DNA from: a virus
IMG/VR virus record: IMGVR_UViG_3300042691_012179
Span: 1-20,786 of that record
Reading direction: 5' to 3' (one strand)
DNA length: 20,786 nt
The stretch's first letter is position 1; every line of letters begins with the position of its first letter. The notes under the pieces were generated by a model, which searched no databases, was not told the origin of the DNA, and saw only the letters and a program-made list of their open reading frames with translations. The translations under genes and the position numbers were made by a program. Shown one piece after another: positions 3-20,786 of this stretch.

Positions 3-2882
3 AAGGATAGAATTACTTCATACTTAAGTACACCTGAAAGCGAATTACAGAAGCAATTCCAGACACAATCATTTACAAGATTCATGATAAACATTCTAAA
101 TTCTGGTTTAAGAACCAGTATGTTAATGAATGATCTTGATAAACCGATCGAAGGTATTGTGTTTAAGTTTATTACACCGGGTGAAAGTGAGGTATACACA
201 GCACGTCTTATAGACCCTATATTTCATCAGCATTCTATGAATGTTACAACGCCTGTTAGTAGAATGGCTAATGACATGTATCAGATTGCGATGTTAGACA
301 TTATTGAATTTATGGAGGTATACGATATAAGTTCAATACAACTTAATGGAGAAGCTCCAGATGAAAGATACATCGAGCTCATGTCGATCATATTCAATGA
401 CTATATCCAGAAAAATGGACATAAATATATTGGTGTAGATTTTGAAACACCAGATTTTGCAAAGAAGCCAGAGTTCGATATTAACCTGGCCACTATACCA
501 AATGAAAGAACCAGAGAGATACTTAAAAATAGTAAGCTTAACGATCTTTTCAAAATCATCATCAGTTCATTTAGAAAATTTAGAAAGAACACAACTCCTA
601 TATTGACAAAGCAAATAGTAGATGTTCTAAACGATATCATTACAAAAATCCAAGGTAAAGTAGAGCTTATGCCAGAGGAGAATCAGGTATTAGATTTCAA
701 TAATTACTTAAAGAGATCTCAGATTGAAAATGTATCTTCTATATTTGAAAGCATTGTAGATATTAACGAGGCACTTAAACTTAATACAACCGAAAGAGGT
801 ACAAAAAAGGTAAACATATTAGCAGGTAGATTCCAGCCGTTTACTGAAGGTCATATGAAAGTTGTAGAGCAATTGTATAAAGCAAACGGCTTACCAACAT
901 TTATACTTGTAGTAAGAGGTGGTAAAGCAGATCCTGTTAAGAATCCTTTTGATGAAGATACACAATTAGCAATGATCGGTGCTATACAAGATCATAACAA
1001 AATGGTTGAAGGAGCTGCAGTAATCGGTACAGCAGGTATCGATACAATATACAATGCCCTTAGACCTGCTTACGAACCTGTTCTATGGGGTGCAGGTACA
1101 GATAGACTTAAAGCATATAAATATCAAATCGATAAGTATAAAGAAGAGTTGAATGCTCTTCCTGAATTAGATGCACATGAAATTAAAAGATCTGATGAAG
1201 ATATTAGTGCTACTAAGGTCAGAGAAGCTTTAAAGATAGATGATGAGGCGACATTTAAGAAGATGACACCGAAAGGTATGCACAAGATGTATGATCAGCT
1301 TAAAACTATCATGCAGGAAGTTAAAGAAAATTCAGGTTACGCGCTACTTTCGTTTAATGACTTTATTGTAGAAAAGAATGAACCTATTTTTGAAGCATCG
1401 GCTCCTAAAAAGGAAAGAGACGAATGGGGTACATTATATGATGCATGGGTTAAGGGTACAACATTAACCGGTGTTAAGGTAAGTGCAGATGAAGGCGAAG
1501 TACTTAAAGCTGTATTTGGAGGAACCGAATCTGCGATTGAAAACATTAAAGCAATGTTAACAACCATAGGTATATCAGAAAGGGAATACATCATAGAAGG
1601 TTTTGCGCCAGGTGATCAAAGACCTAAATACTCAGGTACGTTTTGGGCGTATCATATAAAATTCAAGAAAGGTGTTACAGTAGGCGGTATAGATTATAAA
1701 AGAGGTGATGGAATAGTTATTGTAGATAAGACACCTGAAAAGAAAGGAGGCGGAGGAGTCGCAGTAATAGGCAAAAAGGATACGACACCGGATAGACTAC
1801 AGTTAGCAAAACCGGGTGCTTCATACCCAAGGGTTGAAGATTTAATTGGAGCATCTAAGGGTGCAATCAACTCACTTAAAATACCTGCTAATTATAAAGC
1901 ATTTGCTATAGGTTTAATGGAAACCATCAAGAACAATACTACAAACTCTGATGCATATGGTAATATAGATAAATTCTTAGAGGCATGTATATCAGGTAAC
2001 CAGAAGCACTCATACTCGATCGATCCTAAACTAACAGCAGGTATTGATCAGATTTCTATCAATAACTTTGCAAATGATTTCGGTGAGATTTTAGGTGCTA
2101 TTCATTTATTCAACGTAATTAAAGATAACACGTCAGGTACTGTATACCCATCTGCATCAAATGCTAAGCTTGTTGACTTTTATTTTGATGGTGCTAACAT
2201 TTCATCAAAGGCAGGCACTAAAGGCGGCACAGCTTCAGCAAGCGGTTTTGTAGAAGCCCTTAAATTACAAGTAGATGCAGGTACAATTATTCCAACCAAA
2301 GATGAGAAATACGTATATGATAATGTCCTATTACCTATTGTTGAACTAAGTTCACTCGACTTTTATACAGACATGTCAAACAAGTTCTTGTATAAAAAAG
2401 GTACAGGTTGGTATTACTTTTTACAAGAGTCTAAATTAGACCCAAATACAGGTGTAACAAAAAGCGCAGTAATAGAATTTTTATATAACCTACATAAAAA
2501 TAAGGCTAAATTTATTAAATTCTATAAAGAACTTTGGGCAGCCTGTGATAACTTCACTTCAAAATCTACAACACCTGAATCACTATACAAGGACTGGGAT
2601 AGCTTAAGTGATCAAGTTGTTTTCTCATGTGTAATGTACCCTTTATCTACAATGGTTGTTAAACACCTTAATCAAACGTATTCGGAGCCTATTTCTAATC
2701 TAATTAGACTTTCAGTAGATACAGTTCAAGCTTATTTAATAATGGAAGTTAAAAAGAATGAAATAATATTCATTAACAAATCTCTAGGTACAGCACACTA
2801 TCATTTTGAACCTAAGGGTGATACAAATAATGCTTACTCATCCGGTATCGGACTTTCATCAGGTGCCGTGTCAAAGAGATAA
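3..2882 (+). CDS. Large multidomain protein with internal NadM-like nucleotidyltransferase (5' partial)
   Basis: The frame is open from position 3 to the stop at 2880-2882, so the ATG at 84 is probably internal and the gene begins left of the window. Numbering from that Met, 932 residues are visible. Residues 20-45 include DKPIEGIVFKF, reminiscent of motif IV of ATP-dependent ligases (weak). Residues 243-412 form a NadM-type adenylyltransferase: GRFQPFTEGH (248-257), KNPF (286-289) and ISATKVR (374-380). The usual HxGH reads TxGH, as in phosphopantetheine adenylyltransferase, so activity is plausible. Candidate prohead-protease sites flank this domain. Residues 664-715 carry FGEILGA, DFYFDG and ISSKAG, a spacing compatible with a PD-(D/E)xK nuclease fold but unproven. 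The C-terminal 200 residues are unassigned. The gene sits directly upstream of two small genes with the same putative targeting motif, suggesting a virion-associated product. The domain call is firm; the role of the whole protein is inference. Confidence 0.85.
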   Translation, partial: KDRITSYLSTPESELQKQFQTQSFTRFMINILNSGLRTSMLMNDLDKPIEGIVFKFITPGESEVYTARLIDPIFHQHSMNVTTPVSRMANDMYQIAMLDIIEFMEVYDISSIQLNGEAPDERYIELMSIIFNDYIQKNGHKYIGVDFETPDFAKKPEFDINLATIPNERTREILKNSKLNDLFKIIISSFRKFRKNTTPILTKQIVDVLNDIITKIQGKVELMPEENQVLDFNNYLKRSQIENVSSIFESIVDINEALKLNTTERGTKKVNILAGRFQPFTEGHMKVVEQLYKANGLPTFILVVRGGKADPVKNPFDEDTQLAMIGAIQDHNKMVEGAAVIGTAGIDTIYNALRPAYEPVLWGAGTDRLKAYKYQIDKYKEELNALPELDAHEIKRSDEDISATKVREALKIDDEATFKKMTPKGMHKMYDQLKTIMQEVKENSGYALLSFNDFIVEKNEPIFEASAPKKERDEWGTLYDAWVKGTTLTGVKVSADEGEVLKAVFGGTESAIENIKAMLTTIGISEREYIIEGFAPGDQRPKYSGTFWAYHIKFKKGVTVGGIDYKRGDGIVIVDKTPEKKGGGGVAVIGKKDTTPDRLQLAKPGASYPRVEDLIGASKGAINSLKIPANYKAFAIGLMETIKNNTTNSDAYGNIDKFLEACISGNQKHSYSIDPKLTAGIDQISINNFANDFGEILGAIHLFNVIKDNTSGTVYPSASNAKLVDFYFDGANISSKAGTKGGTASASGFVEALKLQVDAGTIIPTKDEKYVYDNVLLPIVELSSLDFYTDMSNKFLYKKGTGWYYFLQESKLDPNTGVTKSAVIEFLYNLHKNKAKFIKFYKELWAACDNFTSKSTTPESLYKDWDSLSDQVVFSCVMYPLSTMVVKHLNQTYSEPISNLIRLSVDTVQAYLIMEVKKNEIIFINKSLGTAHYHFEPKGDTNNAYSSGIGLSSGAVSKR
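741..773 (+). other. Candidate prohead-protease site cluster, left of NadM domain
   Basis: The encoded peptide SIFESIVDINEA contains two matches to the T4 gp21 recognition rule: IFE|S (residues 220-223) and INE|A (227-230). It lies at the junction between an unassigned N-terminal region and the nucleotidyltransferase domain, where a processing site would be expected. Supported only by pattern. Confidence 0.35.
771..1394 (+). other. Predicted released fragment carrying the NadM-like domain
   Basis: This stretch encodes residues 230-437 (numbered from the Met at 84) of the large protein. It is bounded by INE|A at its start and IFE|A at its end, both fitting the T4 gp21 rule of I/L-x-E followed by a small residue. 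The roughly 208-residue fragment would contain the whole nucleotidyltransferase domain and little else. NadM-type enzymes join NMN and ATP to make NAD. Substrate identity and cleavage are both inferred; no protease gene is visible in the window. Confidence 0.4.
1362..1397 (+). other. Candidate prohead-protease site cluster, right of NadM domain
   Basis: The encoded peptide FIVEKNEPIFEA (residues 427-438), preceded by SFND, contains FIVE|K and IFE|A. The SFNDFIVE part matches the motif at the N-terminus of the gene at 2904 and in the middle of the gene at 3347. Supported only by pattern and position at a domain boundary. Confidence 0.35.
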
Positions 2883-2903: not shown

Positions 2904-3347
2904 ATGAAAAATTACCCAACATTTGAACAATTCGTAAATGAAAACTTCCAAATAAATGAAGGTAAAGTAGTTTATAAAAGAGCTTACACTGATAAGTACC
3001 CAGCAAGATCTGCTAATGAAAAGGCTGCTATCAGAAATAAAATACTTGATGCTATTCAAGATGGTGTCCTCACTGAAGACGAGTTTAACTCTATCATAGC
3101 AGAGACCGGTGCTCACAGTAGATGGTCTTCTAGAAACGGCCAGTACTTTACTGTTACTAAAGAGGGTATTAAACTTTCTAATTACGGTCTTAAAGTTTGG
3201 GAAAAGATTAAAAGCAACGGTATGGTTAGCGAAGGTAATGCTTTCTTATTAGCTCTTAAAGAAGCTAGAGAGAAAGGTGAAAAAACCTTTGAGTTTAACG
3301 GTAAGACATATACAGTTAAGCAAAGTAAATTAAACGAAGACAAATAA
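2904..3347 (+). CDS. Small protein with capsid-targeting-like N-terminus
   Basis: A 147-residue protein of no recognised family. Its N-terminus, MKNYPTFEQFVNENFQINEG, resembles the capsid-targeting sequence of T4 internal protein III (MKTYQEFIAE). It offers two candidate cleavage sites, VNE|N (residues 11-13) and INE|G (17-19). The remainder is charged and looks soluble, with a helical middle and a C-terminal stretch FEFNGKTYTVK. It has no membrane segment or signal peptide. The leader is A-rich with no Shine-Dalgarno. Its stop overlaps the next start by one base (TAATG), implying translational coupling. A packaged internal head or scaffold-core protein is the favoured reading, by analogy only. 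Confidence 0.85.
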   Translation: MKNYPTFEQFVNENFQINEGKVVYKRAYTDKYPARSANEKAAIRNKILDAIQDGVLTEDEFNSIIAETGAHSRWSSRNGQYFTVTKEGIKLSNYGLKVWEKIKSNGMVSEGNAFLLALKEAREKGEKTFEFNGKTYTVKQSKLNEDK

Positions 3348-3787
3348 TGCCAGCACAGAGTAAAGCCCAACAACGTTTAATGGGTCAAGCATATGCTGTT
3401 AAGACGGGTAAGAAAGATCCAGATGAGGTAAGCGATAAAATAGCTAAATTAGCACAAGGCATGACTAAGAAGCAACTTAAAGACTTTGCTTCAACTAAAC
3501 ATAAGGGTCTACCTGAAACTAAAGAGAACTTTGTACCTACATTTGAAAGCTTTCTAAACGAAGACTATGCCAGAGTACATCCAAATCCAGGTATGAACGT
3601 TGGCGGTATGGGTCCAATTGTTGTACCAGAAGTAGGTCCATATGGCACAGTAGGTTCTGGCGATGTTCCAGCTCCATATTCCGCAAAGGATAAGAAACTT
3701 ATGAAGATGGGTAAGAAAAAAGGCGTAACCGCAATTTCATTTACACCAAACAAGTTCGACGAGTTTCTTAAACAATCTGACAAATAA
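3347..3787 (+). CDS. DUF3008-like protein with internal capsid-targeting-like motif
   Basis: A 146-residue protein. Residues 1-57 match what I recall of the DUF3008 family: N-terminal MPAQSKAQQRLMGQAY, then a helical lysine-rich segment, then DFASTKHKGLP. That family is of unknown function and frequent in phages. Residues 63-73, VPTFESFLNED, repeat almost exactly the motif of the preceding gene (YPTFEQFVNEN), giving a candidate cleavage after E72. The following part is rich in Gly, Pro and Val (residues 77-110) and then basic. The C-terminus, KFDEFLKQSDK, contains a weaker F-x-x-F echo. The start codon shares its A with the stop of the gene at 2904. A two-part precursor, with a DUF3008 head and a packaged tail peptide, is possible. 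Confidence 0.85.
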   Translation: MPAQSKAQQRLMGQAYAVKTGKKDPDEVSDKIAKLAQGMTKKQLKDFASTKHKGLPETKENFVPTFESFLNEDYARVHPNPGMNVGGMGPIVVPEVGPYGTVGSGDVPAPYSAKDKKLMKMGKKKGVTAISFTPNKFDEFLKQSDK

Positions 3788-3810
3788 CAAAACATAGGCA
3801 CTGATATCTG

Positions 3811-3816
3811 TATAAT
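3811..3816 (+). promoter_or_regulatory. Candidate -10 box TATAAT before dUTPase
   Basis: A perfect TATAAT lies in the 44-base gap before the dUTPase gene and ends 15 bases from its start codon, a spacing like that of the stronger promoters in the window. The base positions 18 upstream do not resemble TTGAAA, so this is a weak candidate. Confidence 0.25.
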
Positions 3817-3831
3817 TTCATAAAAGAGATT

Positions 3832-4275
3832 ATGAAGATATTTAAAGTAAGAGAGGTTAAAACTCCAACAAGAGCCCATTCGAATGACGCAGGTATAGAT
3901 CTATATGTACCTGAAGATTTTCTTCCACAAGTATTAGAACCAGGCCAATCTGTTTTGATTCCATCAGGAGTTAAGGCTAGAGTACCTGAAGGACATGCAC
4001 TAATCGCATTCAACAAATCAGGGGTTGCTGCAAAGAAAAATCTATTAGTAGGTGCATGTGTAATTGACGAATCATATCAGGGTGAAATTCACATTGACAT
4101 TAAAAACGTGGGTACATCACCTCAAGTTATTCAACCAGCCGACAAGATTATCCAGCTACTTTGTATACAAATGAATTATGTGCCTGTAGAACTAGCACAT
4201 AGTGAAGAGGAGCTTTTTGCAGATATGCAATCTGATAGAGGTGAAGGCGGATTTGGTTCAACTGATTCAAAATAA
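3832..4275 (+). CDS. dut: dUTPase (dUTP pyrophosphatase)
   Basis: A 147-residue trimeric-type dUTPase that hydrolyses dUTP to dUMP and pyrophosphate, keeping uracil out of DNA and supplying dUMP for dTMP synthesis. All five family motifs are visible in order: SNDAGIDLY (motif 1), NKSGVA (motif 2), GACVIDESYQGEI (motif 3), ADKIIQLL (motif 4) and RGEGGFGSTDSK (motif 5, the flexible C-terminal arm that closes over the substrate). The length is typical for the family. It is followed after five bases by the polymerase gene and lies near ribonucleotide reductase, so it belongs to a DNA-precursor and replication cluster. Its leader contains AAAAGAG but no clear Shine-Dalgarno. Confidence 0.96.
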   Translation: MKIFKVREVKTPTRAHSNDAGIDLYVPEDFLPQVLEPGQSVLIPSGVKARVPEGHALIAFNKSGVAAKKNLLVGACVIDESYQGEIHIDIKNVGTSPQVIQPADKIIQLLCIQMNYVPVELAHSEEELFADMQSDRGEGGFGSTDSK

Positions 4276-4280
4276 TAAGT

Positions 4281-5684
4281 ATGCTTTTAGATATCGAACA
4301 ACTTGAGTATCAAGTTACATTTAGTTTTTTCAATGAGAATGGTGATGTTGAATTAAAAACATACGACACCACTCAATTCCCAAACTGGTATACCTGTGAA
4401 GATACAGATAAGCGTAGAAGCGTCCATAATATAAATTGGGATGGTAAGCCAGTAAGAGCATCATATGAAAAGAAGATATCTAAACATGGTTTGATTGAAT
4501 TTATCGAAAGACTTCCACAGGAAGATAGTGAAAAGATCTTCGGGTATAACTTCCCGAAGACTTTTTTCTTTGATATCGAAACTGAAGTAACGGATGGTTT
4601 CCCAGAGCCTGAGTTAGCAAATAATAAAATTTTAACAATCTCTGTAGTTACACCAAATCAACAGGTTATTGTGTTGGGTCTAAAAGACTTTGATCAGAAA
4701 GCGCAAGAAAAGGTTAAAGCTGATACCAACAAATACTTTGAGAAATTCGGTATTAACTGGGAAATCAAATACATTAAGTTCAATACTGAATATGATCTAG
4801 TCTATACGTTCATCAATAAGTTTATGCCAAAGTTTCCAATGCTCAGCGGTTGGAACTGTATCAACTTTGACTGGAAATATATTGTAAACAGATGTAAGCG
4901 CCTACAGATTGATCCTGCTGAAGCATCGCCAACTGGCACTCTAACAAGAGATGGTCTGCCGTACCATATAGGTATTGTCGATTACATGGATCTATATTCT
5001 AACTGGGATCGAAGCATCGCTGTTAAAGAAAACAATCAGTTGAATACCGCAGCAATGCAAACAATCGGAGTTGGTAAAATTAAATACGACGGTGGCTTAC
5101 AGCAGCTGTATGAAGATGACTATCAAAAGTATCTTTACTATAATGCAGTAGACAGTATTCTAGTATACTTGATGGACCAAAAGCTTAAGACATTACAAGT
5201 AGTACTCACACTTTCTAATATCTGTAAGATCAGTTTCTATAAAGCAGGTTCTCCTGTAGCGATTACTGAATCTCTTATTGCAAGAAATCTTCTTGCTGAA
5301 GGTAAAGTAATGGCAGTTAAGCCATATCAAAAAGAGAAAGAAAAGAATGAGCAATATACAGGTGCATTCGTTAAGCAGCCAGTTGTTGGTAAACATAGAG
5401 CAGTAGCATGTTTTGACTTTGCCTCTCTATACCCATCTATTATGCGTCAATTTAATATATCGCCAGATTCTTATGTTGATATGGTACCCCAGAGTAAAGC
5501 TGATGAATATGATAAAGAAAAATTTACAGTCACTTCAGCAGGTGGTGTCTATGTAAAAGAACCATCAATTCTTAAGCGCGTACTTACTGATCTATATGCA
5601 AAGAGACGTGAATATAAGAAAAAGATGTTTGAATACAAAATGGAATTAGAAAAGATTTCGGAAAAACTGAAAGAAACGACTTAA
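4281..5684 (+). CDS. 43A: DNA polymerase family B, N-terminal part (gp43A): exonuclease and motif A
   Basis: A 467-residue N-terminal portion of a T4 gp43-like replicative polymerase. Exonuclease motifs are intact: Exo I FFFDIETE (D98, E100), Exo II GWNCINFD (D197) and Exo III YNAVD (Y287, D291). Palm motif A is DFASLYPS (379-386), including the first catalytic aspartate. The protein ends 88 residues after motif A in a charged helix (YAKRREYKKKMFEYKMELEK) that corresponds to the fingers. Motifs B and C are absent and are supplied by the gene at 8687. Together the two are 851 residues, against 898 for T4 gp43 (known length). The stop lies within the tip of the fingers, a tolerant site. No intein or intron signature is seen at the break. 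A terminator-like hairpin lies inside the gene at 4531-4567. Confidence 0.95.
   Translation: MLLDIEQLEYQVTFSFFNENGDVELKTYDTTQFPNWYTCEDTDKRRSVHNINWDGKPVRASYEKKISKHGLIEFIERLPQEDSEKIFGYNFPKTFFFDIETEVTDGFPEPELANNKILTISVVTPNQQVIVLGLKDFDQKAQEKVKADTNKYFEKFGINWEIKYIKFNTEYDLVYTFINKFMPKFPMLSGWNCINFDWKYIVNRCKRLQIDPAEASPTGTLTRDGLPYHIGIVDYMDLYSNWDRSIAVKENNQLNTAAMQTIGVGKIKYDGGLQQLYEDDYQKYLYYNAVDSILVYLMDQKLKTLQVVLTLSNICKISFYKAGSPVAITESLIARNLLAEGKVMAVKPYQKEKEKNEQYTGAFVKQPVVGKHRAVACFDFASLYPSIMRQFNISPDSYVDMVPQSKADEYDKEKFTVTSAGGVYVKEPSILKRVLTDLYAKRREYKKKMFEYKMELEKISEKLKETT
4531..4567 (+). other. Terminator-like hairpin inside polymerase gene
   Basis: The left arm AAAAG-A-TCTTCGGG (4531-4544, A4536 bulged) pairs with CCCGAAGACTTTT (4553-4565) across an 8-base loop. 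That gives 13 base pairs with one bulge, followed by a run of T (4562-4567). The shape is that of an intrinsic terminator although it lies in coding sequence, just before Exo motif I. It could cause attenuation or be an mRNA processing or stability element. No function is demonstrated. Confidence 0.5.
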
Positions 5685-5742: not shown

Positions 5743-7599
5743 ATGGAATTATCCAATGAGATCCTCAGTGACATTACGGTGCACATGAAATACTCAAGGT
5801 ACCTACCTGAGTTTGAGAGAAGAGAAACATGGGAAGAGTTAGTAACTCGTAACATGGAGATGCACATCAAGAAGTACCCAGCGCTTGAAGATGAGATCAG
5901 AGAAAAGTACAAAGCTGTATACGGTAAAATGGTTCTACCGTCAATGAGATCTTTACAATTCGGCGGTAAGCCAATTGAAATTTCACCAAATAGAATTTAC
6001 AACTGTGCGTATCTACCTGTAGATGACTGGCGCTCATTTGGTGAGGTGATGTTCCTATTGCTAGGCGGAACTGGTGTAGGTTTCAGTGTTCAGAAACATC
6101 ACGTTGAAGATCTACCTGAAATCAACAGACCTAATCCAAATCGTAAAAGAAGATTTCTAGTTGCAGACAGCATCGAGGGTTGGGCCGATTCAATCAAGGT
6201 ATTGATGAAGTCTTATTTTCACGGTGGCTCAACTATTGAATTTGACTTTAGAGATATTCGACCAAAGGGTGCTAAACTTATCACATCAGGTGGTAAAGCA
6301 CCAGGCCCGCAACCTCTTAAAGAGTGCTTAATTAAAATCGAAGGTATTTTATCACAAAAGCAAAACAATGATAAGCTTACAACAATTCAGGTACACGATA
6401 TTATATGCCATATTGCAGATGCAGTACTTGCAGGAGGTATTCGTAGAGCAGCTCTTATTAGCCTGTTTAGTGCTGATGACGAAGATATGATTTCATGTAA
6501 GTCTGGTAGCTGGTGGGAATTAAACTCACAAAGAGGTCGTGCTAATAACTCTGCAGTTCTTGTTAGAAACAAAGTTACTAAAGAGTTTTTCCTAGATCTA
6601 TGGAAGAAAATTGAGGCTTCAGGATCAGGCGAGCCAGGTATCTACTTTACTAATGATAAAGATTGGGGTACTAATCCTTGTTGTGAAATTGCACTACGTC
6701 CTTATCAGTTCTGTAACCTAACTGAAGTAAACGTATCAGATGTTGAATCACAAGAAGATCTTAATGCACGTGTAACAGCTGCTACATTTATTGGTACATT
6801 ACAAGCCGGTTACACAGACTTCCATTATTTACGTCCAATATGGCAACGTACTACTGAGAAAGACGCACTTGTAGGTATCGGTTTAACCGGTATCGGTAGT
6901 GGTAAAGCTCAGAAGTTCTCTTTAAAAGAGGCCGCAGATTGCGCCAAAACTGAAAACGCTAGAGTAGCAGATCTACTTGGTATCAATAAAGCTGCACGTG
7001 TTACAACTATCAAACCAGCAGGTACAAGTTCTTTGACACTAGGCTGCTCATCTGGTATACATGCATGGCATAATGATTTCTATATGCGCCGAATCAGAGT
7101 AGGTAAAAATGAAGCAATCTATCAATATCTTTCTATTTACCATCCTGAATTAGTAGAAGATGAGTACTTCAGACCTCATGATACGGCTGTTATCTCTATT
7201 CCACAGAAAGCTCCTGCGGGTTCTATCATTAGACATGAATCAGCATACGATCTATTAGAAAGAGTTAAATGGTTCTACAATAACTGGATCAAGCCTGGCC
7301 ATAGAGGTGGAATGAATACCCATAATATCTCAGCTACTGTAAGTATCAAGCAAGACGAATGGGACGGAGTTGGTGAATGGATGTGGGAAAATAGAAACTG
7401 TTACAACGGACTTTCTGTATTACCATATGATGGCGGCACTTACATACAAGCTCCTTTCGAAGACTGTACTGAAGAGAAATACAATGAAATGATGAAATCT
7501 TTAACAAAGGTTGATCTATCTAAAATCATTGAAATAGAAGACAATACAGATCTTAAAGGTGAAGTAGCCTGTGCAGGAGGTGCATGTGAAATAAAATAA
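5743..7599 (+). CDS. nrdJ: Adenosylcobalamin-dependent (class II, monomeric) ribonucleotide reductase
   Basis: A 618-residue enzyme reducing ribonucleotides to deoxyribonucleotides using coenzyme B12 to generate the active-site thiyl radical. By comparison with the Lactobacillus leichmannii enzyme (739 residues), C88 (NCAY) and C324 (FCNL) would be the reducing pair. N311, C313 and E315 (NPCCE) are the radical cysteine and its partners; the C313-to-C324 spacing of 11 equals C408-C419 there. The C-terminal CAGGAC (C610, C615) reproduces the C731/C736 redox shuttle spacing. No ATP-cone precedes the catalytic barrel. A phosphate-binding segment KPAGTSS (424-430) is present. Arg codons include many CGT, unlike the AGA-dominated neighbours. 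It is the first gene of the block separating the two polymerase halves, together with the histone-like gene and the clamp. Class II reduction needs B12 from the host but no oxygen. Confidence 0.93.
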   Translation: MELSNEILSDITVHMKYSRYLPEFERRETWEELVTRNMEMHIKKYPALEDEIREKYKAVYGKMVLPSMRSLQFGGKPIEISPNRIYNCAYLPVDDWRSFGEVMFLLLGGTGVGFSVQKHHVEDLPEINRPNPNRKRRFLVADSIEGWADSIKVLMKSYFHGGSTIEFDFRDIRPKGAKLITSGGKAPGPQPLKECLIKIEGILSQKQNNDKLTTIQVHDIICHIADAVLAGGIRRAALISLFSADDEDMISCKSGSWWELNSQRGRANNSAVLVRNKVTKEFFLDLWKKIEASGSGEPGIYFTNDKDWGTNPCCEIALRPYQFCNLTEVNVSDVESQEDLNARVTAATFIGTLQAGYTDFHYLRPIWQRTTEKDALVGIGLTGIGSGKAQKFSLKEAADCAKTENARVADLLGINKAARVTTIKPAGTSSLTLGCSSGIHAWHNDFYMRRIRVGKNEAIYQYLSIYHPELVEDEYFRPHDTAVISIPQKAPAGSIIRHESAYDLLERVKWFYNNWIKPGHRGGMNTHNISATVSIKQDEWDGVGEWMWENRNCYNGLSVLPYDGGTYIQAPFEDCTEEKYNEMMKSLTKVDLSKIIEIEDNTDLKGEVACAGGACEIK

Positions 7600-7932: not shown

Positions 7933-8694
7933 ATGAAAATAAATCTAACAAGAATCGATGCTGAAGCGATGATATCCTTTATATCGAAACTTACGTCAAT
8001 CGACAAATTCGTTTACCTAAAGGTAGCAGATGAAAATCTAGTGTCTAGTGTTTACTTGCCTGAAAGGGATGCAGTTAAAGTGCAGTCTGTTCTATTTAAT
8101 GAAATCTTTTCATTTGAAAATAAACCTGATAAAGATTTGAAGATATCGTTTTTCAATGGTTCTAAAGTTCTAGAAGCATTAAGAAACTTTAGCAATGTTG
8201 ACAATGACGAGCTTACTGGTGAAATTGAGTGTGCAGAAATCGAAGGTGAATACATTGCAACAAAAATAAGCATACAGAGCTCCAATCTTAGAATTACTGT
8301 TGCATGTAGCGATCCTACTTTAGGTTTCATGGATCTATCAACAGATCAAATCAAGGCTATCTTTAATAAGAAAGATGTTATGTTTGATTTTGATCTAGAA
8401 CCATTTATGCAATCTAAGATCAGTTCACTTTTTAATCTAGATAAAGACTCTGATACGTTCAAGATCCAGTATACACATGATGCAGTAAGAATCAAAGGTG
8501 ACTCTTATGATGCTAAAATTACACAGACCGATGCATCAGCTGTCGAAAGCGGTGTTGAAGTAATGTTGTATAAAAAATACTTCAGCCTCTTAGATAAAGA
8601 AGCATACACAGTTTCTGTCTGTCCTAATAAACTAATTTTCAAATCAAAAGATAGCAATACATTATTGACAGTATCAGTTTGTTCAAATGACTAA
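7933..8694 (+). CDS. 45: Probable sliding clamp (gp45-like)
   Basis: A 253-residue acidic protein without catalytic motifs or membrane segments. It consists of alternating beta strands and short helices, as expected of a processivity clamp, for example VYLKVADENLVSSVYLP near the N-terminus. The C-terminal pattern YTVSVCPNKLIFKSKDSN resembles the closing strands of a clamp. The T4 clamp has 228 residues. The strongest support is context: it immediately precedes the C-terminal polymerase half, overlapping it by eight bases, and it opens the replication operon behind promoter P2. A trimeric clamp in T4 also tethers the late sigma factor gp55, a homologue of which is at 18492. Sequence similarity to T4 gp45 is weak by eye, so the call rests partly on position. 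Confidence 0.62.
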   Translation: MKINLTRIDAEAMISFISKLTSIDKFVYLKVADENLVSSVYLPERDAVKVQSVLFNEIFSFENKPDKDLKISFFNGSKVLEALRNFSNVDNDELTGEIECAEIEGEYIATKISIQSSNLRITVACSDPTLGFMDLSTDQIKAIFNKKDVMFDFDLEPFMQSKISSLFNLDKDSDTFKIQYTHDAVRIKGDSYDAKITQTDASAVESGVEVMLYKKYFSLLDKEAYTVSVCPNKLIFKSKDSNTLLTVSVCSND

Positions 8695-9841
8695 TATGAA
8701 TTTAGACGAATTAACAGCAGAAGAGCTTAAGCAAAAATACAAAGATACTGAAGATTTAATTAACCAATTCTTTAATCAAGAACAGTCTGTTAAGCGAATC
8801 CTTAATTCTATCTACGGCGCCTTCGGTAATGAGTACTTTTATTTCTTCAATATCAATATTGCAGAAAGTATTACTCTGCAAGGCCAGAATGCGATCCTTT
8901 ACACAGAAAAGATGGTGAACACTTATTTTACCGAGTTCTGGCATAAAGACAAGGAGCTACATGAAAAGCTTGGTATTGAAGTTAAGGGTCAAGTTCTTAA
9001 GCCTGTTGTAATCTATATCGATACCGATTCCTGCTACTTATCATTTGAGGAAGCTATTACTAAATCAACATGGGTCGGCTCTGAAAAGGATTTCATCAGT
9101 GACATTTACAAATACCGTCTGAACGACTATATTAAGAAAGTACTTCAGAAATATGCTGATGGTTATGCTACAGAAAATTTCTTAGACTTTGAGCTTGAGT
9201 CAATTGCTAAAAATGCAATATGGTTAGCTAAGAAAAAATACATCCAGAATATTGTATGGGCCGATCCTGGTAATCATTATGACCCATTGACAAAAATCAA
9301 GACTAAAGGTTTTGAGATTATTCAATCATCGACACCGTTATTTGCAAGAAAGCGACTTAATGATGCTATCAAGCTCATACTCGGTAAAGATGACCTAGAG
9401 CTTTCTGAAATTGTACAATTTCTAAAAGAAGCAAAGAAAGAATTTAAGGTTGCAAACATTGAAGATATTTGCTATAATCTTAAAATGAATAACTATCAAA
9501 AATATATCGTCAGCGATTTTGATACTTTTGAATTTGCTTCTGGGTGCCCAATGACCGTAAGATCTGCAGGTTATTATAACTTCTTACTTAACGGTTCGAA
9601 GTTTAAGAATAAGTATCAATTGATTGATAACGCCGAGAAGTTAAAGATGTATCATACTACTGATAAAGACTGTAATGTATTTGCATTCAAAGCCGGATCA
9701 CATCCATATGAATTTGCACCTCCTATTGATTATGAAGAGCAATTTGAAAAATGTATGATCGATCCTCTTAATCGTGTACTGTCAGCAATCGGCATGAAAA
9801 CATTAGATAGAAATTTGATATATTCTACAGCATTATTCTAA
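8687..9841 (+). CDS. 43B: DNA polymerase family B, C-terminal part (gp43B): motifs B and C
   Basis: A 384-residue C-terminal portion of the gp43-like polymerase. Motif B reads QSVKRILNSIYGAFGN (K36, N40, Y43, G44), with the same spacing as T4 K560, N564 and Y567. Motif C is YIDTDS (D112, D114), supplying the second catalytic aspartate. The rest is the thumb, ending AIGMKTLDRNLIYST. The first 30 residues form a charged helix (DELTAEELKQKYKDTEDL) that could pair with the C-terminal helix of gp43A and rebuild the fingers. The start at 8687 overlaps the clamp stop; an alternative Met lies at 8696. Without the first half it lacks motif A and could not polymerise alone, so the two must assemble. 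Confidence 0.95.
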   Translation: MTNMNLDELTAEELKQKYKDTEDLINQFFNQEQSVKRILNSIYGAFGNEYFYFFNINIAESITLQGQNAILYTEKMVNTYFTEFWHKDKELHEKLGIEVKGQVLKPVVIYIDTDSCYLSFEEAITKSTWVGSEKDFISDIYKYRLNDYIKKVLQKYADGYATENFLDFELESIAKNAIWLAKKKYIQNIVWADPGNHYDPLTKIKTKGFEIIQSSTPLFARKRLNDAIKLILGKDDLELSEIVQFLKEAKKEFKVANIEDICYNLKMNNYQKYIVSDFDTFEFASGCPMTVRSAGYYNFLLNGSKFKNKYQLIDNAEKLKMYHTTDKDCNVFAFKAGSHPYEFAPPIDYEEQFEKCMIDPLNRVLSAIGMKTLDRNLIYSTALF

Positions 9842-20038: not shown

Positions 20039-20786
20039 ATGGCAGGATTTCTAGACAGATTTGGACCCTTTAGTAGAAGATTCTCGATTTCAAAATCGTT
20101 ACAGAATCTTAGTAGTTTAGGGATGAAGTATGACGATATGATTATCCGTAACTCACAAGCAATTGGTGTTACAGAGGATCGTTTCGGTTATACCATGATT
20201 AACCCGTACGGTCTAGAAAACGAAGACTACTGGTACCCATTCGCAGCATTATCAATGGCTGATACAACTCTTAAAAAGAGTATCAGTTTTTTCATACAAC
20301 AATATCCACAGAAAAGAATTGAGCTTAGAAAATTCGCTACTCAAGATGAGATCGAAGATATTCTAGATACATTATGTGATGAAGCGGTTGTATACGATAG
20401 TAAAAACTATTTTGCGTATCCAGATGCATCACATTTAGGTCTATCTGAAGACGTTCAAAAATATATTGTTACAGCATACAATCAAATCTATCAATACTTT
20501 GGTTTTACTCAAGACCAATCAGGTTGGTATTATTTCCGCAAATGGTTGATTGATGGTTACTTATCATTTGAAATTATCTATAATGACGACCAGTCTGAGA
20601 TTATTGGTTTCAAAGAAATTGATCCAGTTACCCTAATGCCTGCTGTCGATAAAGAGACAAATAAGAAAATCTGGTATCAACATAAGAACGATCCAGTTAA
20701 ACAAAGAAAGCTTTACGATTCACAAGTAATCTATCTCTCTTATTCATCAGTCGCCACAAACGAAAGAGTATCTTACGTAGAGCGCC
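20039..20786 (+). CDS. 20: Portal vertex protein gp20, N-terminal part (3' partial)
   Basis: An open frame starts with ATG at 20039, four bases after the preceding stop, and runs without a stop for 249 codons to the window edge; T4 gp20 has 524 residues. Similarity to T4 gp20 is colinear. DEAVVYDS matches SDAIVYED. FRKWLIDGYLSFEIIYND matches FRRWYVDSRIFFHKIID. IIGFKEIDPVTLMP matches IKELRRLDPRQVQY. The dodecameric portal is the DNA entry channel, the nucleus for prohead assembly and the docking site for terminase and neck. The N-terminus (MAGFLDRFGPFSRRFSIS) is basic and phage-specific. Confidence 0.92.
   Translation, partial: MAGFLDRFGPFSRRFSISKSLQNLSSLGMKYDDMIIRNSQAIGVTEDRFGYTMINPYGLENEDYWYPFAALSMADTTLKKSISFFIQQYPQKRIELRKFATQDEIEDILDTLCDEAVVYDSKNYFAYPDASHLGLSEDVQKYIVTAYNQIYQYFGFTQDQSGWYYFRKWLIDGYLSFEIIYNDDQSEIIGFKEIDPVTLMPAVDKETNKKIWYQHKNDPVKQRKLYDSQVIYLSYSSVATNERVSYVER

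Follow-up and report, generated by a model that had tools for sequence, protein, structure and literature searches.

The window analysed here, positions 1 to 20,786 of IMG/VR record IMGVR_UViG_3300042691_012179, is a 20.8 kb virus fragment assigned to a marine T4-like phage. Its first gene encodes a candidate polyprotein in which a domain resembling the nucleotidyltransferase NadM lies between an RNA-ligase-fold domain and a C-terminal domain (Table 1). A first-pass annotation, made from the letters of the window, placed NadM motifs in a gene of at least 959 codons, marked four sites around them of the type cut by the T4 prohead protease gp21, and suggested that the phage packages and injects a processed enzyme of nicotinamide adenine dinucleotide (NAD) synthesis. 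Motifs and sites are indeed present. GRFQPFTEGH begins at residue 275 (base 825) and is accompanied by KNPF and ISATKVR, and the residues that would follow the cuts, marked here by a slash, are 250 (IFE/S), 257 (INE/A, base 771), 458 (FIVE/K) and 465 (IFE/A, base 1395). gp21 substrates have L/I-x-E before the cut, and the window's joints read IFE, INE, IVE and IFE. The fragment of about 23 kDa that was anticipated has a calculated mass of 22.6 kDa (residues 257-457) or 23.4 kDa (257-464). The observation of a NadM-like domain bracketed by four sites is confirmed; the interpretation placed on it is partly supported.

The NadM domain matches CTP_transf_like in Pfam (E 9.1e-8), a cytidyltransferase family in PHROG (E 2.2e-17) and a NadM/Nudix model in NCBIfam (E 2.5e-8), the last with 33.5 bits, which does not reach the curated cut-off of 409; the 26.6 bits scored against the NCBIfam equivalog TIGR01527 likewise lie below its cut-off of 181.2. 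NadM-type proteins carry the motifs GRFxPxHxGH and ISxTxxR. In the window the second is present as ISATKVR, and the first His of HxGH is replaced by Thr, giving TxGH, a form that occurs in phosphopantetheine adenylyltransferase (PPAT). Structure prediction for the relative L004 yielded a fold of the nicotinamide mononucleotide adenylyltransferase (NMNAT) type, whose best match by Z is archaeal NMNAT 1f9a (Z 16.2, 2.7 A over 156 residues, VIA-align). The best 12 structural matches by Z are all NMNAT or NadM, PPATs reach Z of about 14 to 15 (first PPAT row 14.9), and the target-normalised TM-score of 1f9a (0.73, Foldseek) is above those of PPATs. The predicted fold and the motifs are those expected of an adenylyltransferase acting on nicotinamide mononucleotide (NMN).

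Polyprotein relatives at six IMG/VR loci, three of which encode one same protein, are 85-92% identical across the NadM stretch. Full-length relatives comprise 1114-1122 residues from the first Met, divided into an N-terminal domain of ~405 residues, NadM and then ~500 residues; their layout reads RNA-ligase-fold domain, IxE, NadM, F..FIxE and a further domain of unassigned family. The N-terminal domain of L004 resembles the T4 RNA ligase 2 fold by Foldseek (E 8.1e-8), on which this assignment rests, VIA-align having barely covered the domain; the Pfam RNA_ligase match is weak (E 0.057). Since another residue stands in place of the motif I Lys (EQ in L004, L005, L006 and L009, EM in L119 and L139, EN in L001), the domain is probably not an active ligase in these seven proteins. 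EK is kept in 16 of the 23 proteins having this domain in A3, an alignment of 24 selected, mutually related proteins in which L006, L007 and L008 are the same protein and L112-L117 repeat L004-L009. The structure model of the C-terminal domain (predicted local distance difference test, pLDDT, 53) is unusable for fold comparison.

Table 1. Features of the window, with positions counted from its first base
Feature	Position	Strand	Remarks
Polyprotein gene	3..2882	+	959 residues; frame open at window 5' end; ~1122 codons by comparison with L004
RNA-ligase-fold domain, C-terminal part	3..731	+	contains IEGIVFKF; motif I outside window
IFE/S, outer left gp21-type site	741..749	+	[IV]FES in G001, G003, G006
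INE/A, inner left gp21-type site	762..770	+	predicted NadM fragment N-terminus at base 771
NadM/NMNAT-like nucleotidyltransferase domain	771..1373	+	profile and structure matches
Capsid-targeting-like motif FNDFIVE, residues 451-457	1353..1373	+	joint between NadM and C-terminal domain
IFE/A, outer right gp21-type site	1386..1394	+	I-x-E/[AGS] kept in L004, L005, L006, L009, L139; not L119
C-terminal domain	1395..2882	+	no family match in Pfam, PHROG or NCBIfam
147-aa protein	2904..3347	+	N-terminal capsid-targeting-like FEQFVNE at residues 7-13; motif scan
DUF3008 protein	3347..3787	+	internal capsid-targeting-like FESFLNE, then capsid-N-arm-like stretch; family match and motif scan
gp20 portal, cut by window end	20039..20785	+	family match

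Conserved joints and capsid-targeting-like motifs

Within the window polyprotein, I/L-x-E occurs at chance density (12 observed, 10.4 in shuffled sequence), which rules out such sites alone as proof of processing; [ILVM].E[AGS] occurs 7 times against 3.0, and the pattern [FY]..[FY][ILV].E once against 0.1. Sites in a single sequence mean little, and the case is therefore carried by conservation of the joints in relatives. Three of the seven [ILVM].E[AGS] sites lie in joints and remain sites in all four sequences compared (the window and its partial close relatives G001, G003 and G006), two in the C-terminal domain (residues 533 and 810) are lost in G003 and G006, and two within NadM are part of its conserved sequence. 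A left [ILVM].E[AGS] site stands within 40 residues before NadM in 81 of 83 loci (71 if only I or L is allowed), the set consisting of the window, L001, L010 and 80 further homologous loci, and in 22 of the 24 A3 proteins; these counts describe non-independent events, the homologues being mutually related. When 164 homologues are grouped, 15 of 18 clusters have the left site, compared with 16.4% of background 40-residue windows, and the misses are L001, L119 and the cyanophage locus L002, whose site lies farther upstream. The conservation on which the first-pass annotation had made its idea depend is found on the left and, on the right, in the majority of loci with the window's architecture. 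Three stretches of the L004 model have pLDDT <50: the inner left site (414-419), the right motif (606-642) and residues 245-253, which lie away from any joint.

At the right joint, FNDFIVE agrees with the capsid targeting sequence (CTS) of T4, in which aromatic residues three apart are followed by an Ile/Leu-type residue and Glu, and this CTS-like motif offers a targeting step that was absent from the earlier account. Nine of the ten loci that combine the ligase-fold domain, NadM and a downstream domain have the strict motif, the window included (a single protein is encoded by three of the nine), and in this class the residue preceding the Glu varies. Ligase-NadM loci that end after NadM retain F..F in 29 of 30 cases and the strict motif in none; similarly, the cleavage Glu is missing from all 16 A3 proteins that end shortly after a C-terminal F..F. 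According to the accessible text of PMC9026906, residues 4 and 7 of T4 IPIII act in targeting and residues 8 and 10 in processing, and Asp at position 10 stops processing while targeting is retained. The presence of Glu at joints and its loss from C-terminal F..F fit these genetics. A simpler rule, that Glu is present wherever a domain follows NadM, was rejected, as it applies to 9/10 loci in the ligase-NadM class but to 0/35 of the short-N-terminal type. Most short-N-terminal loci among L120-L169 encode NadM proteins with a looser, tag-like start, for example MDNLKNIQDFITEK, in which an aliphatic residue replaces the first aromatic.

As a control we scanned T4 with the strict motif, which was modelled on the IPIII start and required to start within the first 14 residues; motif counts here and below derive from our own open reading frame (ORF) calls, not from annotations. 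Among the 241 predicted proteins the only two matches are ipII and ipIII (shuffle mean 0.40); ipI and Alt are missed. Among cyanophages, the tag MK[KS]F[SN]AFLxEA opens the NadM-like protein at 80/80 loci (the best 80 of 420), and the NadM-like proteins of P-SSM2, ACG-2014f, S-CRM01 and S-SSM7 have similar tagged starts.

Three cyanophage NadM-like proteins are reported from virions: T4-GC190 of S-SM1 (PMC3037559), the NMNAT-like ORF154 of S-CREM2 (PMC10665884, Table 3) and the NMNAT-like ORF91 of S-SCSM1 (PMC9602691). All three have a CTS-like tag at the start, that of T4-GC190 reading MKKFSAFLNE/A. S-PM2 encodes a GC190 that was undetected in its virion (PMC3037559), and this copy has no CTS-like start. 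Carriage of NMNAT-like proteins in the virion and their entry into the host were already proposed by the authors of PMC10665884 and PMC9602691, so the suggestion of a packaged NAD enzyme, which the NadM-like homologues in cyanophage virions support, is not itself new.

The S-CREM2 virion list also allows the tag to be compared with detection. A scan of all start codons, prompted by the GTG start of a kinase, finds the strict motif in 3 of 196 ORFs, all virion-detected (p 0.016): an APH/ChoK-like kinase, an S-adenosylmethionine (SAM) hydrolase and ORF154. With ATG-preferred starts, both strict matches are virion-detected, with p only 0.067, and a looser motif gives 4/6 (p 0.041). Relaxations picked after the N-termini were known give 4/4 when Met or Phe is allowed at the hydrophobic position (p 0.0039) and 5/6 when the motif may lie up to 24 residues in, which adds a Cas9-annotated protein (p 0.0045); 2 of the 52 virion ORFs are missing from the ORF set used. 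ORFs 6, 12, 13, 14 and 15 of this phage (OR473000), which comprise the SAM hydrolase, the Cas9-annotated protein, the kinase and small neighbours, are all virion-detected and have CTS-like starts or close variants. Of 248 S-SCSM1 ORFs, two have the strict motif, those of the virion NMNAT and of a 2-oxoglutarate (2OG)-Fe(II) oxygenase, and allowing Met or Phe adds one small hypothetical protein.

A gp21-type protease, which the first-pass annotation had expected in the genome, is encoded in G001 and G003 by the gene immediately downstream of the portal. The family PF03420 is found in 5 of 11 records, the other six being fragments of 13 to 123 kb, and in all ten further records. In G001 (3117-4736) and G003 (43568-45331) a scaffold-like region in which [FY]..[FY][ILV].E recurs is fused to the protease; five to six CTS-like motifs are present there, with a spacing of mostly 28 or 14 residues. 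To judge from these repeats, the CTS-like tag may imitate those of the scaffold itself.

A proposed head-core polyprotein and its alternatives

We propose, with a probability of roughly 70%, that the product of this gene is a head-core polyprotein of a T4-like marine phage that is targeted by CTS-like motifs and cut by gp21-type protease, releasing a NadM fragment that is ejected. From N- to C-terminus the polyprotein would comprise an RNA-ligase-fold domain, an adenylyltransferase of the NMNAT type and a final domain that varies. Its CTS-like F..F motifs would bring it into the prohead core, where the phage's protease would cut I/L-x-E in the joints, and the freed NadM fragment of ~23 kDa would be retained in the head and ejected with the DNA. 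The enzyme would then adenylylate NMN and support host NAD. The most likely role of the enzyme, though a more tentative suggestion that we consider somewhat doubtful, is to restore or hold NAD from the opening minutes of infection, perhaps in the face of NAD-depleting defences. The anatomy of the gene, the conservation of its joints, the protease in relatives and the tag on virion-detected homologues are the observations on which the proposal is built.

The distribution of NadV, which acts with NadM in phage NAD salvage, bears on the reaction of the ejected enzyme. NadV is present in 5 of 15 records searched and was not found in the cyanophage records W02, G015 and G016, nor in G010, G012, G014 and G017. 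Every NadM phage is stated to have NadV by Iyer 2022 (PMC9503650), a rule that these cyanophages break, provided that their protein is accepted as a NadM. The distribution weighs against a simple salvage role; NadM might then use host NMN, or its true reaction may differ. The idea that NadV is packaged alongside NadM was rejected, as the NadV proteins of G009, G011, G013 and W01 have no tag at the N-terminus.

Several observations weigh against the proposal, in addition to the chance density of I/L-x-E and the p of 0.067 in S-CREM2. Virion detection concerns cyanophage homologues only, not the window phage; the authors allowed for carry-over of abundant proteins (PMC10665884, PMC9602691), and the S-PM2 non-detection may reflect low sensitivity, other structural proteins having been missed as well (PMC3037559). 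The tagged S-SCSM1 oxygenase is not annotated as a virion protein, and the NadM proteins of HTVC008M and Menderavirus Ps15 have no tag. In the window's clade the tag is internal rather than at the extreme N-terminus, and Lys after FIVE is unusual beside A/S/G. The strict right motif is missing from the ligase-NadM locus L118 and from all 35 short-N-terminal loci with a domain after NadM, some of which have a looser L..F..NE, and L001 and L119, which are without the left site, have TFE. PF03420 was not found in the window's own 20.8 kb record, and NadV was not found in the three partial close relatives G001, G003 and G006. Finally, PPATs lead NMNATs by Foldseek E-value in the L004 model comparison (3.1e-6 versus 3.4e-5 for 1f9a).

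An unlikely alternative is that the protein is packaged and cut but does not serve NAD, forming instead an RNA-repair or other adenylyl-transfer kit with the ligase-fold domain and the adjacent DUF6267-like nucleotidyltransferase. The likeness of the N-terminal domain to T4 RNA ligase 2 is consistent with such a kit, as are TxGH in place of HxGH and the E-value lead and Z scores of PPATs. DUF6267 also adjoins NadM in cyanophage L002, and a gene resembling DUF6267 (by reading; it has no Pfam match) lies upstream of the polyprotein and carries the motif in G001, G003 and G006, not in the window; in G001 and G006, where it adjoins the polyprotein, it contains KTDGQ. Against this, NMNATs or NadM fill the 12 top places by Z, the ligase Lys is lost in close relatives (EQ in four of them), and NadV co-occurs in a third of the records searched. 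In L010 an intein (Pfam Intein_splicing, E 1e-10) apparently splits the DUF6267-like gene upstream of NadM (L010:6378-8955), and a homing-endonuclease-like ORF follows (by reading).

Packaging of the whole, uncut polyprotein, with F..F serving only in targeting and the product working as an effector of several domains in the manner of 'polyvalent' proteins, seems improbable. T4 genetics, in which Asp at position 10 blocks processing and allows targeting (PMC9026906), the Glu-less C-terminal F..F of the 16 A3 proteins and 29 ligase-NadM loci described above, and the packaging of polyvalent proteins in some phages (PMC5512222) would all suit it. Arguing for cleavage are the Glu in nine of ten ligase-NadM loci with a further domain, where the residue before it varies, and the left site kept in 81/83 loci. 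Very unlikely is an ordinary cytoplasmic fusion enzyme whose sites and motif are incidental or fold-related: it would accommodate the chance density of I/L-x-E, an EAL segment that adjoins the conserved NadM stretch, the 35 short-type loci and the untagged NadM of HTVC008M, S-PM2 and Menderavirus, but not readily the tag-like motifs found at the N-terminus, joint or C-terminus across architectures, nor the NadM-like homologues in virions.

The proposed head-core polyprotein shares features with several known systems. T4 IPII and IPIII have the same order of aromatic-xx-aromatic and hydrophobic-x-Glu, with head genes nearby and a gp21-type protease (here in relatives); the window protein differs in that its motif forms a joint inside a chain of three domains and that an enzyme is the cargo. 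The cyanophage NMNAT-like virion proteins (S-SM1 T4-GC190, S-CREM2 ORF154, S-SCSM1 ORF91) have a homologous domain and a CTS-like tag, and the L002 copy adjoins the DUF6267 gene; unlike the window protein, they are tagged at the N-terminus and have no ligase-fold domain, and identity to cyanophage homologues is ~25-29%. The fold of T4 Alt is unrelated to NadM. Alt is also an NAD-related enzyme that is packaged, injected and processed at both ends (PMC9026906), but it consumes NAD and its N-terminus falls outside the motif. Polyvalent proteins (Iyer 2017), as portrayed in the accessible part of PMC5512222, are large, multidomain and in some cases packaged, and carry MPTase, ART and similar domains, whereas the window protein has cleavage-type joints and CTS-like motifs. 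Phage NadM/NadV salvage has the NMNAT step in common, and differs in its NadV, for which the search of the partial genomes of close relatives was negative; NARP1 (PMC12774641) shares the NMNAT step of NAD salvage and uses other enzymes.

Neighbouring genes and the wider set of tagged proteins

Architectures around NadM are modular. L010 encodes NadM as a separate gene of 198 residues whose product begins MNHFKTFEQFIFE/A, that is, with the tag FEQFIFE/A. The gene that follows encodes a ligase-fold domain, 68-69% identical over 414-417 residues, whose joint ends INE/A, and its C-terminal part beyond this joint has no BLAST match to the window type. The 462 kb phage LR756500.1 (L001) combines the ligase-fold domain and NadM without a third domain.

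Outside the polyprotein gene, the window has Pfam/PHROG matches to the families of gp20 portal, gp4 head closure, gp2 DNA end protector, gp15 tail sheath stabiliser and late sigma factor. The downstream 147-aa and DUF3008 genes carry a CTS-like motif in the window and in relatives. The stretch after the motif in DUF3008 (DYARVHPNPGMNVGGMGP) resembles that after LNE/S in the presumed capsid protein of G001 and G003 (VYNYVHMNPGMNVPGMGP), which is assigned by gene order and reading. Matches in the 618-aa ORF at 5743 (motif at residue 17) and in the dUTPase-like ORF of G003 and G006 (residue 22) were set aside as probably due to chance. A Family B DNA polymerase is apparently split over two genes (4281-5684 and 8687-9841), between which lie a ribonucleotide reductase-like ORF (5743-7599) and a clamp-like ORF (7933-8694), all named by reading; the halves are likewise separate ORFs in G001 and G003.

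The N-terminal motif extends well beyond NadM. It is found in 1 of 21 proteins in the window (shuffle mean 0.05), 4/43 in G001 (0.07), 5/57 in G003 (0.11), 15/155 in G006 (0.24), 15/218 in G009 (0.44) and 24/308 in G011 (0.56); S-8S29 has 2/184 (0.24), the NadM-like protein and one other. From G009, G011 and G006 we aligned 51 of 54 tagged proteins, leaving out 3 that cross locus ends (alignment A5). Mean column identity is 7%, some members being cross-record counterparts, with an N-terminal consensus of MKxxKLFExFxxE. Most have no Pfam match; the remainder include Tad3, Zeta-toxin-like kinases, GNAT, ATP-grasp and 2H phosphoesterases. The Tad3 match is in one protein (E 9e-22; 77.5 bits, cut-off 27). 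PADLOC gave a single weak match among the 51 (E1-E2, in one member), and Acb1-like matches were discounted as weak, L031 scanned alone being below its cut-off.

The Tad3-family Thoeris inhibitor at L204:681-1439 (G009 180681-181439) begins with a CTS-like tag, and the start of G011 199513-200277 resembles it. In G011, 13 CTS-tagged ORFs lie within ~7 kb (193196-200277, mostly L223), and on the basis of their tags this cluster is possibly a cassette of packaged proteins. With 15-24 mostly unrelated tagged proteins per record in the three largest relatives examined, we regard the chances as evenly balanced that T4-like marine phages pack a large arsenal defined by the tag, including Tad3, kinases, acetyltransferases and an NMNAT released from a polyprotein by cleavage.

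A packaged NMNAT-like protein in cyanophages is known from print. Among the matches listed by literature searches, no paper links capsid targeting with NMNAT; none joins cytidyltransferase, cyanophage and virion, and capsid targeting together with cyanophage gave one review. Nor do the papers listed include one that places Tad3 (Thoeris) in a phage head or describes it as injected. As far as these searches go, what is new comprises a probable targeting signal, a polyprotein form whose joints would be cleavable and the wider tagged set including one Tad3.

The authors of the virion studies could not separate packaging from carry-over (PMC10665884, PMC9602691). A short sequence motif that is consistent with T4 genetics and agrees with the non-structural members of a published virion list amounts to a packaging prediction for uncultured phages. 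Here the tag marks NAD metabolism and a known anti-defence family as cargo loaded in advance, and with the polyprotein form one can test directly how several enzymes might be targeted and released together in T4-like phages. If such an arsenal exists, its cargo would be readable from sequence through the tag alone, and counter-defence, including restoration of NAD, would be delivered before any phage gene is expressed.

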